NCBI GenBank assembly: GCA_013327885.1
Contig: JABUMY010000019.1
Coordinates: 1 to 64,000, forward strand
Direction of reading: 5' to 3'
DNA from: Flavisolibacter longurius
GTDB lineage: Bacteria > Bacteroidota > Bacteroidia > Chitinophagales > Chitinophagaceae
Length of the DNA stretch: 64,000 nucleotides
Position numbers and translations under genes: made by a program. This document shows, in pieces, positions 3,401 to 27,702 of the stretch. How positions within the stretch are numbered: the stretch's first letter is position 1; each line of letters begins with the position of its first letter. A model generated the notes under the pieces. That model worked only from the letters and a program-made list of their open reading frames with translations. It was not told where the DNA came from and did no database searches.

Positions 3401-6400
3401 CACCTTGGTGCCTTCGATAGCGACATCAAAAACACGGCTGCCGGTTGTTGTAAAGAAGATTTCTGCAAAGTGTAGTACCACTTTGTATTGCCCATTGGTT
3501 ACAGGAAGGTTGTAGCCGAATGAACTGCCGTAGCGTTCTGATTGATAGATGATATCATCGTTTGTGCCATTGATGGCGTTAGTAGTGGTTTTGACACTTC
3601 CCGGCGAAGGCGAAAAGAAGGCATCAGCCGAAAAACTACCAAGGCTTGTGGACACTTGCTGCCCGCCTGCATTTAGCCGGTAGACGGCTGTGCTTCCTTC
3701 TCCCGTTAAACTGATAGTATTACTCAACGCTTGCCCTGAATGATTTATCACAAGACTCCCGGTTTGCTGTCCTGCAGCCGTTGGCTTGAAGGCAAGAGTG
3801 ATGGTAACACTACTGCCCACAGCAAGTACAAATGGTAGTGTTATTGGAGAGCTGAACGTAAAGGTGCCGGAACCCGTTAAAGCCATGCTGGAAACCAGGA
3901 TACCCTGGTTCCCGCTTGTATTGGACAATGTTATTGTTTTGACATTCTCGGCGTTCAGGTTTGTTGTACCAAAATCAACGGCAGCAGGGGCAGCAAGTTG
4001 GCTTTGCACCAAGGCTTCTCCGATTGGTGTGGTAGGAGCGAATAAATAAAATGCTTCCTGTGTGTTTAATTCGGGACTACTTCCGCGTCCGCCTGATCCG
4101 GCAGCGATATAAATACCGTTATTGTTGACAATAGCCTGTGTTCCATGTCTTCCCTGCTGTAGATCCGCCAGTCTCCGCCAGGTGTTTGAAGTAATATGTA
4201 AAGCTTCCGTTTCGCGGTGGGCTTCGGCCTGGGTCCCGCTTTCACCACCAATGACGATTATCTCGTTTCCAAGTCCAACCGTGGTTGTACCCGCTCGTTG
4301 CGTTGGCAAATTGCTGCCGCTGGGAAGCGTTGACCATGTGCCGGATGTAAAATCAAAAACATCAACTTCCGGTACTGTTAGGTTAAACACCTGGTTCGTG
4401 ATGCCGGAGGATCGCCGGCCGGCAGTTAGGTAAAGTTTGTTATCTAGGATGGCTGCTTGAAAATGGTCACGTTCATGCGGGGCATCCGGGAGTACCTTCC
4501 AGGTATTTGTTGCCGGGTCAAATTCGTCAAGCCATTTTACCGTTCCCGTCCAGTGGCCGTCGGTGATTCCGCCAACCAAATAGATTTTCTTGTTGTGCAC
4601 AATAGCTCCGGCAGCTCCCCGGCGCCTTGCCTGCGGAATGGAGGGTCCCATTATCCACTGGTTGGTTGCCGGATTATAGACATATATATTGGGCACAGGA
4701 ATTTCGTGTGGATATGCGCCGCCAAAGGCACCTGCCACGTAGATCAATCCTTCATGACTGACTGCCTGGAAATGATTTAATTCAACAGGCGTTAACGCTT
4801 TTGCTAACCAGGTTTTTGTTAGGGGGTTGTATTCCTGAACCGGTTTGATACCTCTTCCGCCAATCAGGTAAAATTTGTTACCTGCTTGAACGTATGCATC
4901 TTCATGCCTGGCCGTAATCGTGCCACTGGCCGCAGCAAGTGTTTGCCAGGTTCCCGTTGCCGTAACGGCGTCATAATTTAGTTTAAGGTAATCCCAAGAA
5001 GCCGTGAAACTAGGCCCGCCTTGTGATGTTGAAATAATACCGACAGCCAGCGTCGAATTTCCGAGTAAGGCTGCCAGGGTTGCACCGCTGACAGGAATCG
5101 GCGTACCGATATCAATAGCCTCTCCGTTATTGGAAACATAAGCAGCCTGTATTGAGTTGTTGACAGGATTGAACTTTAACAGCAAATCCATTGTAGATGT
5201 TGGAATGCCACCTTCGAGGGAGTATTCAAAAACGGTGGGCACACCGGCGTTTTCGTACACAACCTGTATGCCACCTGCACCGTTATTTGAAGTCAGTGCA
5301 ATTTTCAGGTAATTGTCCTGGTCTCCGTTACCAATATACATGCCTTGAGAATGCACACCTTCCAGTGTCTGGCTGTTAAAAAAAGGCCCCAGCATGCGGG
5401 TACGTACAGTGAAAGGGAAGCCATTTGTATGCACACCTGCCTGAAATGCATTTTCCTGCGTATTCGTTGTTCCCATCGCATCCCCTGCCGTAACATTTAC
5501 AACAGTAAATGCTCCCACAGCACCGCCGGCAATCAGGTTGTCTTCGGTAAATAAATCGTAATAATCGATGGTGCTGTTACTCATCAGTCCCGTAAAGCCA
5601 AGGCCGAAAAATCCTGTACCTGGGTCGTAGTTGAACAGATCATAGTTAATAGGCAGCAACGTGTTGCTACCATTTGTAGCGTCAATCGAAAAGGCATCGT
5701 GTTTATCGTCGATACCATCATTATCATCATCAGGATCATTCAGGTCAGAGATTTTGTCGTGGTCTGAATCCGGTGGCATGCTTGCTGCCGAACAAGGGTT
5801 GGATGCATTGTCTATTTCATCTGCGTTGGTATAGCCGTCACCATCCTCATCGACTGTTCCGTACACACCGGTGCAGATGCCAAAATCCTGCGGCTCAAAA
5901 ATGGTAATTGAATTGGAGCCATGTGTGGCCGCCCATACCGTTCCTGCAAAGACAGCATTATCACCCTGCACCGTAACATCCAGCGGCGTGGAACCAAAGT
6001 TGGAGGCAAAGGGAAGGTCCTGGTTGAGCTTATTGACCGGGTCCCTTGGATTGGTTACATCCGTTCCGTCAGTGGTTAGGTCAAGTTTGTAAATCTTACC
6101 GTCAAAGCTTGCTGCCAACAGGTTTCCTTTTAAAGCACTGTTGAAATTTGACGCCGTATACTCGGCAATACCATTTGTCGATGCAGTAAAGGTTAAAAGT
6201 GCGCCATCACCAGTTCCTGGCATTTTAAAATCTCCTTGGCGGGGATCCGCAATGGTTACCGGTGGCCAGTCAACCGGCAAAGGGTTATTTCCAGTTTTAC
6301 TGGTGCGAAAAACGCCTGTTGTGCCATTGTGCGTGTACAGCCCGGCACCGGAAGGGTTGCCCCAGATAGGATTGGGGTGTCCACCATAGAAGCTACCCGG

Positions 6401-7579
6401 CACATAGGTGTTTAGATTTCCGATATAATGCAGGTTGTCAAGGTTGTTCACCACCCCTTCGTTGACAGAGGGCTGGGTGGAGCCGGGCTCACCAGGTACA
6501 TAGTTGTTGGTGACGTTTGCAGTGCCTTCGTTACTGGGATACCCTCCCCATCCCTGGTTAGGTCCATTGTCGATGGTGTACATGCGCCTTGCGTTGGTAA
6601 TGACCAGGTCATACGGGTTGCGAAAACCCGGGGAATAAACCTGCACAGGTCCGCCTGCAACTATTTTGGCCATGTTCAGGCCATCGTTGCCACCAAAGGG
6701 ATCATTGAGATCAGTACCGTCTGGATTGTTGCTGCGGGTGGGATCGTCAAGCGTGGGAAGATCATATTTATAGGCGGTATTGCCGCTTTCTTTAACAGGT
6801 AATGCATTGATGACATTCAAATCAATGGAAACAATAGCAGCCGAGAAAGTATATTCACAAGTGTAGGCAAAATTTGTAGATGGTGAACCGGCGTTGGTAT
6901 GTCCCCCAATGGCCAGGTATAGCATATTCGTTTGCTCATCCAACTGCATTCCGTTCACAGAATGGTTCTCTTCCGAACGGGGAAAGCCCCTGACCAAATC
7001 TACTTTGACCCATGCTGTTCCGTTCCAGGTTAGCATGGAAAGAATGCCGGAATTGGTATCCAGGTTCAGGTCGCCGCTTGGACCGCCAATGCGGCTGTCA
7101 CTTGAACTGACGTAGATGACAGGGCTTGCTGCGGTTCCTTTTACAAGAATGCCGGTGATTTGCCTTTTTACAACCGCCGGATTCAGTGTGCCATCATCGT
7201 TACGATTAGGAATTTGATTGATGAGGTCAATGGTTTGTGTAGCTGTTACCGAGTAATTGTTTGAGCCATTCCGAACAACGGTAAACACTTTTATAAGGCC
7301 TCCTTGTTCGGATACATACAGGCGCCCATCTGGGCCGAATTGCAGCGAGGTTGGGTTGACAAGGAAAACATTTTTTAACGCACTGCTTGAGAAATTATAC
7401 TGGGCATTTGCCAGCATTACGCCAGATAAATTCTGAGGAGGTAGTTTCTGTTTTTTCCTTTTTTCTTTCTTTTCTTTCGGAACAATTTGCGCCGAAACCC
7501 AAGGTGAAATAACAGCAGTAAAAAGAAAATAAAAAATGCAAAATTTAAAAAATGAATGGCAGGACAATGCTTTACGCAT
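1..7579 (-). CDS. Giant secreted modular protein (propeller, Kelch, malectin and PKD-like domains), partial at the left edge
   Basis: The frame opens at the ATG at 7579 and stays in phase to the window edge (7579 minus 4 is a multiple of 3), giving at least 2,526 codons; the C-terminus is missing. Residues 1-31 look like a signal peptide ending near VSAQ. In order: a sugar-dehydrogenase/NHL-like propeller (about 50-560, with FGPDGRLYVSEQGG); Asp-rich thrombospondin type-3 calcium repeats (about 575-630); an unassigned beta-rich segment (630-860); Kelch repeats (870-1175, IYLVGG, NKIYLVGGITDGHW); an ASPM/Hydin-like domain (1190-1290); malectin-like domains near 3690-3230, 2930-2465 and 940-485; and seven PKD-like domains (TANAGADQTITLPLSQVQL type) between and after them. 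A further module lies at 1255-1615. It is probably an exported surface or secreted carbohydrate-binding/adhesion protein. A type IX secretion C-terminal signal would lie outside the window, so the export route is inferred. Domain edges are approximate. Confidence 0.9.
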   Translation of the reverse strand, partial: MRKALSCHSFFKFCIFYFLFTAVISPWVSAQIVPKEKKEKRKKQKLPPQNLSGVMLANAQYNFSSSALKNVFLVNPTSLQFGPDGRLYVSEQGGLIKVFTVVRNGSNNYSVTATQTIDLINQIPNRNDDGTLNPAVVKRQITGILVKGTAASPVIYVSSSDSRIGGPSGDLNLDTNSGILSMLTWNGTAWVKVDLVRGFPRSEENHSVNGMQLDEQTNMLYLAIGGHTNAGSPSTNFAYTCEYTFSAAIVSIDLNVINALPVKESGNTAYKYDLPTLDDPTRSNNPDGTDLNDPFGGNDGLNMAKIVAGGPVQVYSPGFRNPYDLVITNARRMYTIDNGPNQGWGGYPSNEGTANVTNNYVPGEPGSTQPSVNEGVVNNLDNLHYIGNLNTYVPGSFYGGHPNPIWGNPSGAGLYTHNGTTGVFRTSKTGNNPLPVDWPPVTIADPRQGDFKMPGTGDGALLTFTASTNGIAEYTASNFNSALKGNLLAASFDGKIYKLDLTTDGTDVTNPRDPVNKLNQDLPFASNFGSTPLDVTVQGDNAVFAGTVWAATHGSNSITIFEPQDFGICTGVYGTVDEDGDGYTNADEIDNASNPCSAASMPPDSDHDKISDLNDPDDDNDGIDDKHDAFSIDATNGSNTLLPINYDLFNYDPGTGFFGLGFTGLMSNSTIDYYDLFTEDNLIAGGAVGAFTVVNVTAGDAMGTTNTQENAFQAGVHTNGFPFTVRTRMLGPFFNSQTLEGVHSQGMYIGNGDQDNYLKIALTSNNGAGGIQVVYENAGVPTVFEYSLEGGIPTSTMDLLLKFNPVNNSIQAAYVSNNGEAIDIGTPIPVSGATLAALLGNSTLAVGIISTSQGGPSFTASWDYLKLNYDAVTATGTWQTLAAASGTITARHEDAYVQAGNKFYLIGGRGIKPVQEYNPLTKTWLAKALTPVELNHFQAVSHEGLIYVAGAFGGAYPHEIPVPNIYVYNPATNQWIMGPSIPQARRRGAAGAIVHNKKIYLVGGITDGHWTGTVKWLDEFDPATNTWKVLPDAPHERDHFQAAILDNKLYLTAGRRSSGITNQVFNLTVPEVDVFDFTSGTWSTLPSGSNLPTQRAGTTTVGLGNEIIVIGGESGTQAEAHRETEALHITSNTWRRLADLQQGRHGTQAIVNNNGIYIAAGSGGRGSSPELNTQEAFYLFAPTTPIGEALVQSQLAAPAAVDFGTTNLNAENVKTITLSNTSGNQGILVSSMALTGSGTFTFSSPITLPFVLAVGSSVTITLAFKPTAAGQQTGSLVINHSGQALSNTISLTGEGSTAVYRLNAGGQQVSTSLGSFSADAFFSPSPGSVKTTTNAINGTNDDIIYQSERYGSSFGYNLPVTNGQYKVVLHFAEIFFTTTGSRVFDVAIEGTKVLDNYDIVARAGAGYTAKTETFTIPVTDGTLNINFSSLLADGGVNNAKVSAIEVLSINGSNLLPTANAGGDQTITLPLSQVQLHGSGTDPDGTITGYQWTQLSGPNTATFSNNITAQPTVSGLVQGSYVFSLVVTDNQGEKSPADQVTITVNPAETGGPFVYRLNAGGQQLVTSMGTFSTDAFFSPSPGSTWRTTAAINNTTDDALYQTERWGKAFGYNLPVANGQYKVVLHFAEIYFTTTGKRIFDVSIEGVKVLDNYDIVAAGGAAFAPRTETFIVSVSDGTLNINFSSQTVDGGLDNAKVSAVEVLTMSSSNLQPTANAGAYQTITLPLSQVQLQGSGTDPDGTISGYQWTQVSGPSQAVFSSHTVAQPTVSSLVQGSYVFALTVTDNLGATSAADQVAITVNSINVLPTANAGADQTITLPLSQVQLQGSGTDPDGTIAAYQWTQLSGPNTAVFSNNTSAQPTVSGLVQGSYTFSLIVTDNQGANSAADQVTVTVNAAINVLPTANAGADQTITLPLSQVQLQGSGTDPDGTITAYQWTQVSGPNTAVFSNATLAQLIVSGLQQGSYVFALVVTDNQGGKSLADQVTVTVNPANSTHAVVSFTLINADNEQGILTLGNGETLNLGTLPTRNLNIRANTSPATIGSVVFNLTGKQTRNQTESGAPYSLFGDANGNYNAWTPAVGSYTLKATPYSGAGGSGTAGSQLMVSFSVIDQSAPPSNLLPTANAGADQTITLPLSQVQLQGSGTDTDGTITAYQWTQVSGPNTAVFSNATLAQLIVSGLQQGSYVFSLVVTDNLGGKSLADLVTITVIPAVVGGNILYRVNAGGPQLATTLGSFSADNYFAPAPGSTWRTNAAINSTTDDALYQSERWGKTFGYHFPVTNGQYKVVLHFAEIYFTTTGKRIFDVSIEGAKVLDNFDIVAAGGVAFIPKTQTFTVSVTDGTLNINFSSLAADGGVDNAKVSAIEVLTTNTPNTVPTANAGANQVITLPLSQVQLQGSGSDADGTIAAYQWTQVSGPNTAVFSNATLAQPTVSGLQQGSYVFSLTVTDNLGAASNPALVTITVNPAPNVLPSASAGTDLAITLPLAEVQLQGSGSDADGTIAAYQWTQVSGPNTAVFSNATLAQPTVSG

Positions 7580-23586: not shown

Positions 23587-24723
23587 TTAGCTTTGTTTTT
23601 TTAATTCTGCCAGGGGGTAGAAGCTGTTGCGCCAGTAAATGCCGCCCTGCTTCAGGGTACGGTAGCTCGACACAACAATGATATAAACCATCACCATTCC
23701 CGAAAACGAAATCAACAGGGAGTGCCACCATTTTGCCTGCATGCCTTTTACACCCAGCGTAATCAGCAATTGCGCCAGCAGGATAATGGCAGCCGTAATT
23801 GGATAGCCACTAAATAAAAGCAGGGGCCAGGGCAAAACGATCAATAGTAAAGTTGACAAGGCCATGCCCAGGGCCATAAAGACATTGTAGTTGGCAACCG
23901 AAAACGTATTCTTCATCAGGCCCTTGACAAATTCACCCAAACCGGTGTACCATTGAAGGGAAATCTCGTCCTTGCCAAAAACAACGTTCTGCCGGAAGCC
24001 GGCCGCTTTCAGGCGTTCACCCAGCTTCAGGTCATCGTCCGGACGAAGTGAGATGACTTTGTGCGTACCGGCTGCTTCGTAAGCGGTACGCCTCACCAGG
24101 TTAAAAGCACCTACGCCCATGGAGGCTTTGGAAGAAGGTTTGGAGATGTCCCAGGGACGAAGTTTTACATTCAGCATCAGGGCAAAGGTGTTCATCACAC
24201 TTTTAAAAAGTTCAGACTTTGACGTTACTTCCGGCAGTGCGGTCAGGTGATCGAGACTTTGCTGCTGCACGTAGTGCATGGCTTTTCGCAAGGCGTTCGG
24301 GGCGAACAAAACATCGGCATCGGCAAACAAGAGCCATTCCGATGACGTGGCGAGATAACCCTGGTAAAGCGCATGGTTTTTTCCCAGCCAGCCTTCGGGC
24401 AAACTTTCCACCGTAATAACCTGGATGGACCTGTTTTGCTGCGCCATACGCTGCAGGATAACCGGTGTGTTATCGGTTGACCGGTCGTTAATGACAACAA
24501 TCTTCAGGTTAGGATACTGCAGGTTGCAAACGCTGCGCAGGGCTTTTTCCACTTCGGCTTCTTCGTCCTTCACGGCAATAATTACGTCAATCGAAGGCAG
24601 TTCGTTGCCAGTCAGGGGTGAAATGTCTTTGAGGTAAGCAATGCGCCGCGAGCTGATAAGCAGGTAGACGCACATGCCCGTCCAAAGCACCAACATCGCT
24701 ATTGCATAGATCTGTAGCAGCAT
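23587..24723 (-). CDS. Membrane-associated family 2 glycosyltransferase
   Basis: A 378-residue GT-A enzyme with an N-terminal helix (about 4-24), a catalytic domain (47-270) with IDVIIAVKDEEAEVEKAL, NDRSTDNTP, the metal-binding DADVLF and the acceptor-site RPDDDLKLGERL, and three C-terminal membrane helices (about 285-360). The plan resembles HpnB/CrtQ-type transferases that glycosylate lipid acceptors at the inner membrane. A sphingolipid desaturase lies 2 kb upstream on the same strand, so a glycolipid role is possible but not shown. Confidence 0.85.
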   Translation of the reverse strand: MLLQIYAIAMLVLWTGMCVYLLISSRRIAYLKDISPLTGNELPSIDVIIAVKDEEAEVEKALRSVCNLQYPNLKIVVINDRSTDNTPVILQRMAQQNRSIQVITVESLPEGWLGKNHALYQGYLATSSEWLLFADADVLFAPNALRKAMHYVQQQSLDHLTALPEVTSKSELFKSVMNTFALMLNVKLRPWDISKPSSKASMGVGAFNLVRRTAYEAAGTHKVISLRPDDDLKLGERLKAAGFRQNVVFGKDEISLQWYTGLGEFVKGLMKNTFSVANYNVFMALGMALSTLLLIVLPWPLLLFSGYPITAAIILLAQLLITLGVKGMQAKWWHSLLISFSGMVMVYIIVVSSYRTLKQGGIYWRNSFYPLAELKKQS

Positions 24724-26670: not shown

Positions 26671-27702
26671 TTATACGGTTGTGTTGGCCATTTCCCCGGT
26701 TTTGCTTTCTACCACTACCAGTTCTACGTCTGGCTTCGATTCGTCGGTAAGCTTCACCTTGCCACGGTTTTTCCGTACAATTCTTGACCAAAGTGATAAT
26801 TCGCGGTCGAAAATAAAGCGGAAGAACAGCTTGGTCCATGAAGTATGATAATGCAGTGTATCGTAATGCTCCGAAGCCTGCTTGCGCACCTGCGGAAGCT
26901 TGTTCCAAGGAATGGAAGGAAAATCGTGGTGTTCGTTGTGGTAACCCACGTTAAAAGCAACCTTGTTCAGGGGACCATAATAGCTATAGGTTTCCTGCTC
27001 GCCATGTACCAGGTAGTGCTCCTGGATCCAGCGGCCACCCAAGGGATGCAGTCCCACTGAAAAGAAAAAGCTAAGGGTTAGAAACGCCACCGCTTTCCCG
27101 CCGAGGAAATACCAGATGGCAGCTACAAAAGCAATGTTGGCAATCCAGTTCAGGGCCATCCAGCCGTCAAACGGTTTGATCTCCTTCAGGCGGGCAACAC
27201 GAAAAGCCTGGAAAAGCGGGTAAAACAGGAACCAGATCACTTTTCCAATAAAATAATTATTGATCAGTTTGGCTTCCCATCGGTTGGGCAGATCGGCGTC
27301 AAGTTCGTGCACACCCTGGAAGGAGTGGTGCTTGATATGGTAACGCTCAAATGCAACGGCACTGGGGAAAACCTGCGGCAGGTTGGCCAGGATGCCCGAA
27401 AGCCGGTTGGCTACATTGCCTTTAAAAATTAGTTTGTGTGTTGCCTCGTGAATCATAACAAACAGGGCATGATCGGCAAAAGCACCAACCAGGTAAGCAG
27501 CGCCAAAAATCCACCACCAGCTTTTATCGGCCACGAACCAGGCAAGAACCACCTGAATGCTGACAAGAAAAAGAATGGCGAAAATGGTGTTGATGTTTTT
27601 CCCGATAAGGTTGCGGATCTGTGGGTGTTGTTTCAGGATCTGCTTGGTACGTCCACGGTGTGGTTCGGGGGCATTGGAAAAAAGAAAATCGTTTGGTCTC
27701 AT
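26671..27702 (-). CDS. Sphingolipid delta-4 desaturase-like protein (DEGS1/DES family)
   Basis: A 343-residue integral membrane di-iron desaturase. Residues 4-38 match the N-terminal DES domain of eukaryotic dihydroceramide desaturases (DFLFSNAPEPHRGRTKQIL). The three histidine boxes are HEATH (85-89), HIKHH (122-126) and HNEHH (255-259), set in ETYSYYGPLN and FNVGYHNEHHDFPSIP, which closely match my recollection of human DEGS1. Helices lie near 40-58, 64-85, 150-170, 182-215. The expected reaction is insertion of a 4,5 trans double bond in dihydroceramide. Bacteroidota make dihydrosphingolipids, so a substrate is plausible. No serine palmitoyltransferase gene is in the window. A bacterial carotenoid or other lipid desaturase is the alternative, but the DES N-terminus favours sphingolipid. 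Confidence 0.9.
   Translation of the reverse strand: MRPNDFLFSNAPEPHRGRTKQILKQHPQIRNLIGKNINTIFAILFLVSIQVVLAWFVADKSWWWIFGAAYLVGAFADHALFVMIHEATHKLIFKGNVANRLSGILANLPQVFPSAVAFERYHIKHHSFQGVHELDADLPNRWEAKLINNYFIGKVIWFLFYPLFQAFRVARLKEIKPFDGWMALNWIANIAFVAAIWYFLGGKAVAFLTLSFFFSVGLHPLGGRWIQEHYLVHGEQETYSYYGPLNKVAFNVGYHNEHHDFPSIPWNKLPQVRKQASEHYDTLHYHTSWTKLFFRFIFDRELSLWSRIVRKNRGKVKLTDESKPDVELVVVESKTGEMANTTV

Follow-up and report, generated by a model that had tools for sequence, protein, structure and literature searches.

A gene for a membrane desaturase of the DES/DEGS family was found on the minus strand of the window, which is the whole 64,000-nucleotide stretch of DNA that was analysed. The enzyme probably acts on bacterial dihydroceramide, by Delta4-desaturation or by C4-oxidation, and Delta4-desaturation would give a 4,5-unsaturated ceramide. 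It belongs to a real bacterial branch of the DES family, one that is widespread and most likely takes part in bacterial sphingolipid synthesis. The original prediction that the organism makes 4,5-unsaturated ceramide is retained as a best guess rather than as an observed property, and we infer it because the genome encodes a serine palmitoyltransferase (SPT) together with GNAT and SDR proteins, because SPT and the desaturase co-occur in relatives, and because one locus (L160) places a desaturase in an SPT and inositol-phosphoceramide gene cluster.

Desaturase gene and protein

The features of the gene and its product are listed in Table 1. Frame 1 of the plus strand contains several stops across the same interval. 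The protein scored above the Pfam cut-offs for both PF08557 Lipid_DES (47.7 bits, cut-off 23) and PF00487 FA_desaturase (86.4 bits, cut-off 29.7), and the human DEGS1 sequence used here as the positive control scored 74.3 bits as Lipid_DES. The draft genome of the source organism (5.75 Mb) gave a single PF08557 match (5.8e-13) and the 14 control genomes gave none, while another desaturase of the same genome, L151, matched PF00487 and not PF08557 and served as the negative control. The DES-type N-terminal segment, the three histidine boxes and the two blocks shared with animal DEGS1 that had been noted earlier were all recovered, the first as the PF08557 match, the boxes (at the residues stated) and the blocks by script, with the blocks also present in the human DEGS1 sequence used here. 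Alignment of the window protein with 17 relatives gave 61 columns invariant across the 18 sequences, which places the observation far beyond chance.

Table 1 Features of the desaturase gene and its predicted product
Feature	Position in window	Strand	Remarks
DES-family membrane desaturase gene, 343 aa + stop	26671..27702	-	Start ATG at 27702
Lipid_DES N-terminal domain PF08557, residues 3-36	27595..27696	-	Pfam
Histidine box 1 HEATH, residues 85-89	27436..27450	-	H85 and H89 invariant, 18 sequences
Histidine box 2 HIKHH, residues 122-126	27325..27339	-	H122, H125 and H126 invariant, 18 sequences
Histidine box 3 HNEHH, residues 255-259	26926..26940	-	All five residues invariant, 18 sequences
Block ETYSYYGPLN, residues 237-246	26965..26994	-	Also in the human DEGS1 sequence used here
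Block FNVGYHNEHHDFP, residues 250-262	26917..26955	-	Also in the human DEGS1 sequence used here
AGAGG, Shine-Dalgarno-like, just 5' of start codon	27706..27710	-	By eye, no statistic

The window protein is 39 % identical over 317 aa to the human DEGS1 sequence used here (E 9e-81 in a small local set). It shares with animal DEGS1/DES1 the PF08557 and PF00487 domains, three histidine boxes at like places, and both conserved blocks; it differs in beginning with MRP where the human sequence used here has MG, and in a C-terminal tail (residues 320-343) that has low model confidence. Membership of the DES/DEGS family is supported by domain, motifs and full-length similarity. The structure model is largely helical (pLDDT 81.8), and its Foldseek matches were weak and of large rmsd (8xqw_M 1.6e-6, 8xks_K 1.4e-5, AlkB 1.5e-3, human SCD 0.08). 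By sequence, the desaturase had no match of weight in the PDB, and its NCBIfam matches (CrtW, GntB and CrtR) were distant and all far below their own cut-offs.

PF00487 spans many acyl-lipid desaturases, and on that ground the protein might be an ordinary fatty-acyl desaturase that merely resembles DES. This is very improbable, because the DES-specific PF08557 is above cut-off here, as it is in 40 of the 395 genomes of the phylum sample, and is lacking from L151 of the same genome; the association with SPT in relatives and the L160 cluster, both described below, also argue against it. The domain result, with L151 as control, likewise speaks against a place among non-sphingolipid desaturases.

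Distribution and phylogeny

Two samples were used, one of 395 genomes drawn across Bacteroidota (phylum sample) and one of 195 Chitinophagaceae genomes (family sample). The 40 genomes with PF08557 above cut-off in the phylum sample fall in 25 of 170 genera, and a further count gave 43 of 195 in the family sample. A weak Lipid_DES fragment with two in-frame stops (G544:C20:298220-298291) lies in an SPT-bearing genome and is possibly a decayed desaturase; it was scored as desaturase-absent in the Chitinophagaceae counts. In a scan of named genomes, relatives were encoded in at least 567 of 596 stretches. The best 80 of the 567 came from Chitinophagaceae, from Mucilaginibacter and from bins whose names go no further than phylum or order, and among these 80 the closest named relative was Flavisolibacter longurius (93 %). 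Viral or plasmid carriage was rejected, since searches of viral contigs with A1 or L002 as query, and of phages and plasmids with L002, gave no desaturase.

An unrooted tree was built from 44 rows, 43 bacterial and one human (the DEGS1 sequence used here). The window protein was placed among Flavisolibacter, within Chitinophagaceae, followed by Mucilaginibacter and then other families of Bacteroidia, so that the tree broadly follows bacterial families. One Chitinophagaceae desaturase, L009 (genome G253), was placed outside the clade of its own family, and like proteins occur in L160, L162 and L168 (70-74 % identity to L009) and in L163 (64 %), so that Chitinophagaceae have a second desaturase type; the L009 and L160 proteins are about 58-60 % identical to that of the window.

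Human DEGS1 grouped with four proteins (L002-L005) of family f24, which belongs to another class of the phylum, with support of 100/100, although the human branch is long (1.86) and consists of one sequence; other f24 proteins were placed elsewhere in the tree. L002-L005, together with L131 and L132, are the desaturases nearest human DEGS1 (43-49 % identity) and come from genomes of 1 to 20 contigs. L002 itself is 48.7 % identical to the human sequence used here, and contamination is unlikely for it because its genome is a single contig and its neighbour genes look bacterial by eye. The suggestion that the gene came into this lineage by transfer from a eukaryote is not supported: carriers occur across many families of Bacteroidota, with which the tree broadly agrees, and the branch closest to human DEGS1 lies in another class. 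The window desaturase is not a lone import.

Sphingolipid and sulfonolipid genes of the source genome

A PF00155 search of the source genome gave 23 matches, among which three alpha-oxoamine synthases (L114, L112 and L120) were classified. L114 is an SPT, with 652.7 bits for NF047600 against a curated cut-off of 640 and serine palmitoyltransferases as its top PDB matches, and L112 is a glycine C-acetyltransferase. L120 is of the SulA type, its best PDB match being a Cysteate-C-fatty acyltransferase (1.5e-179), and has Lys281, a residue given as a SulA marker in PMC9304779.

The SPT gene is followed contiguously on one strand by a GNAT and an SDR gene (L158, G000:C52:66000-80000, at 3590-6942). 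The GNAT protein scored 40.7 bits for PF00583 over the whole protein (cut-off 20.7), with no single stretch passing, and the SDR is of epimerase type (PF01370, 112.6 bits). As a GNAT and an SDR, these two are candidates for the roles of bCerS and CerR, assigned by position and family. PMC11087976 describes that pair as an acyltransferase and a reductase. SPT, GNAT and SDR adjoin in the source genome, whereas PMC11334938 describes the three genes as lying apart from one another in Bacteroidota that produce sphingolipids. Dihydroceramide synthesis by the organism is plausible, given its SPT above the curated cut-off and the adjoining GNAT and SDR genes. The desaturase and the SPT lie on different contigs of the draft genome. 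Since the genome holds both the SPT set and a SulA-type enzyme, dihydroceramide and N-acyl-capnine are both possible substrates.

Co-occurrence of desaturase and serine palmitoyltransferase

Among the 195 Chitinophagaceae genomes, 28 have both genes, 15 the desaturase only, 13 the SPT only and 139 neither (odds ratio 20, Fisher p 1.4e-13, kinship ignored), which is to say that SPT was found in 28 of 43 desaturase carriers versus 13 of 152 others. Counted by genus, the corresponding figures were 19, 8, 7 and 67 of 101 (p 4e-9, kinship again ignored). The SPT search used for these counts also gave a match in Bacteroides ihuae, one of the 14 controls. A hand tally of the genera that vary in both traits gave six concordant and one (g7) discordant (one-sided p 0.06). 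Kinship was taken into account with a quick tree of 101 hand-chosen SulA sequences as a stand-in for the species tree, representing 35 of the 43 carriers, 11 of the 13 genomes with SPT only and 55 of the 139 with neither; independent pairs on its starred branches gave 3.9 changes in the same direction and 0.1 in the opposite one, at a median p of 0.125 in what is an underpowered test. The Bacteroidia part of the phylum sample had 15 genomes with the desaturase, 18 with SPT and 9 with both.

SPT-free carriers numbered 15 of 43 in Chitinophagaceae (12 of these at least 95 % complete), plus four Bacteroidia of other families. A search of these 19 with an SPT protein query, in which every candidate was scored, found no SPT, the best identities being 33 to 38 %; with the same query, two controls that have SPT reached 60-62 % and genomes G070 and G191 48-49 %. 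SPT is truly absent from the 19 carriers.

The enzyme might instead, or in addition, desaturate or hydroxylate the capnoid base of N-acyl-capnine, a sulfonolipid whose base is made by SulA from cysteate. The SulA-type enzyme L120 with its Lys281 would make such a sphingoid-like base in the source organism, a SulA-type match was found in all 15 Bacteroidia carriers of the phylum sample of which only 9 have SPT above cut-off, and the same match is present in each of the 15 Chitinophagaceae carriers without SPT. We consider this reading unlikely. The SulA-type match says little on substrate because it is near-universal in Chitinophagaceae (184 of 195, made up of 42 of 43 carriers and 142 of 152 others), and a sulfonolipid-only substrate, which the 15 of 15 count in Bacteroidia had put forward, was demoted for that reason. 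Furthermore, the 110 desaturase loci contained no SulA-type gene, and 17 carriers of families f17, f35 and f43, from other classes, had no SulA-grade match (best 2e-54 to 3e-69), yet encode SPT-like enzymes below the SPT cut-off. RIF-1 from Algoriphagus has a capnoid base that is saturated and 5-hydroxylated (PMC3463246) and that lends no support to a sulfonolipid desaturase in Algoriphagus. As a separate observation, Lys281 was present in 101 of 101 aligned SulA-type enzymes (L120 and L180-L279), and sulfonolipids may be near-universal in Chitinophagaceae.

Gene neighbourhoods

Neighbouring genes were counted in 110 of 111 desaturase loci (L041 was left out), of which 77 are approximately full length and two repeat another locus. 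SPT is present in two, L160 and L053. L160, from genome G447, was picked because an SPT had already been seen 10 kb from the desaturase; on listed coordinates it is the sole pair so close among the 28 genomes with both genes, and in G555, G395 and G484 the two are 44-74 kb apart.

The L160 cluster runs on one strand in the order SPT, GNAT-like, SDR, MIPS, PgpA, GtrA, DUF5686, LpxR, PIP synthase, FA_hydroxylase, desaturase and PAP2_3, with gaps of about 30 bp on each side of the desaturase. The PIP synthase is of BT1523 type (NF052561, 401.9 against a cut-off of 350), the GNAT match is just below the Pfam cut-off (20.1 against 20.7), and the desaturase is of the second type, 60 % identical to that of the window. 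The Bacteroides inositol-phosphoceramide genes are BT_1522-1526 according to PMC9246714 and PMC8791184. L160 resembles that cluster in MIPS, the PgpA-like and GtrA-like genes and the BT1523-type PIP synthase, and its PAP2_3 may match BT_1522; it differs in also having SPT, GNAT-like, SDR, DUF5686, LpxR, FA_hydroxylase and the desaturase. Neither "desaturase" nor "desatur" appears in the main texts of these two papers.

The FA_hydroxylase gene of L160 (PF04116, 17203-17814) lies about 30 bp before the desaturase and perhaps encodes a ceramide hydroxylase. Its presence bears on whether the desaturase homologue could itself be a sphingolipid C4-hydroxylase, or a bifunctional enzyme like animal DEGS2, making phytoceramide-type bases. 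The window protein is of the same family as DEGS2, which has hydroxylase besides desaturase activity according to PMC12993136, but the L160 cluster already has a separate hydroxylase, and we regard this alternative as quite improbable.

L053, from a Chitinophagaceae bin of the named-genome scan, contains the L160 gene set except for DUF5686, LpxR and FA_hydroxylase. The set is on the strand opposite to the L053 desaturase, which lies 2.6 kb from the cluster edge and about 9 kb from the SPT and is 72 % identical to that of the window. In G191 and G070, two carriers of other classes, a gene for a GNAT related to that of L160 comes after the SPT-like gene, which scores under the SPT cut-off; in G070 an SDR adjoins as well. 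The commonest neighbour family occurred in 34 of the 110 loci, and no sphingolipid gene was recognised among the commonest neighbour families of these loci, judged by the look of their first residues.

A glycosyltransferase encoded near the desaturase in the window (23587-24723, minus strand) matched Glyco_transf_21 (43 bits against 21.7), with HpnB as its best NCBIfam match, below cut-off, and may act on lipid. It had been pointed to earlier as a neighbour of possible relevance, and was rejected as a partner because the link is not conserved: a homologue was found in only one of 80 other loci (L031), 50 of the 80 having some 10 kb to either side. The gene immediately downstream of the desaturase encodes a response regulator receiver protein (PF00072; 26192-26635, minus strand), homologues of which occur in the three other Flavisolibacter loci L031-L033 (69-86 % identity) and in L057 (35 %).

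Proposed reaction

The desaturase, a member of the sphingolipid Delta4-desaturase family, is predicted to sit in the inner membrane and to use a non-haem di-iron centre. The histidine boxes of this superfamily bind two irons that activate O2, and in animal DEGS1/DES1 the electron donor is cytochrome b5. Dihydroceramide would come from the SPT, the GNAT-type acyltransferase and the SDR reductase whose genes lie elsewhere in the genome. With O2 and donated electrons, the desaturase would then remove hydrogens at C4-C5 of the sphingoid chain, the substrate, place of the bond and its geometry all being putative, and the resulting 4,5-unsaturated ceramide would presumably gain its head group afterwards. 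The CerR reductase of Caulobacter is placed in the periplasm in PMC11087976; if CerR is periplasmic here too, either a desaturase that faces the cytoplasm would encounter the keto form or the steps would have to run in a different order.

Significance

Delta4 sphingolipid desaturases have been classified (PMC5037126), and the Delta4 step is still treated as eukaryotic in recent texts: DEGS1 is placed under early eukaryotic sphingolipid enzymes in Table 1 of PMC12993136, and bacteria are said to largely lack the desaturases in the introduction of PMC12724326. A ceramide d18:1/24:1 is reported in Sphingobacterium detergens in the same paper. No report of a bacterial dihydroceramide desaturase was found among the matches listed, as judged by titles and the starts of abstracts and with subscription journals and preprints outside the scope.

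A wider proposal, tentative and on balance doubtful, is that Delta4-desaturation of ceramide is a long-established trait among Bacteroidota, presumably aerobic ones, that the bacterial and animal enzymes have a single origin through transfer between domains, most visibly through L002-L005 of f24, and that sulfonolipids may be a further substrate of the family where carriers lack SPT. If this were true, and the direction were from bacteria to eukaryotes, animals would owe to bacteria the enzyme with which they make true ceramide. Production of 4,5-unsaturated ceramide by the bacterial enzymes would mean that a widespread bacterial phylum has this chemistry, that ceramides from such bacteria could be mistaken in lipid surveys for those of eukaryotes, and that the origin of the animal enzyme can be put to the test.
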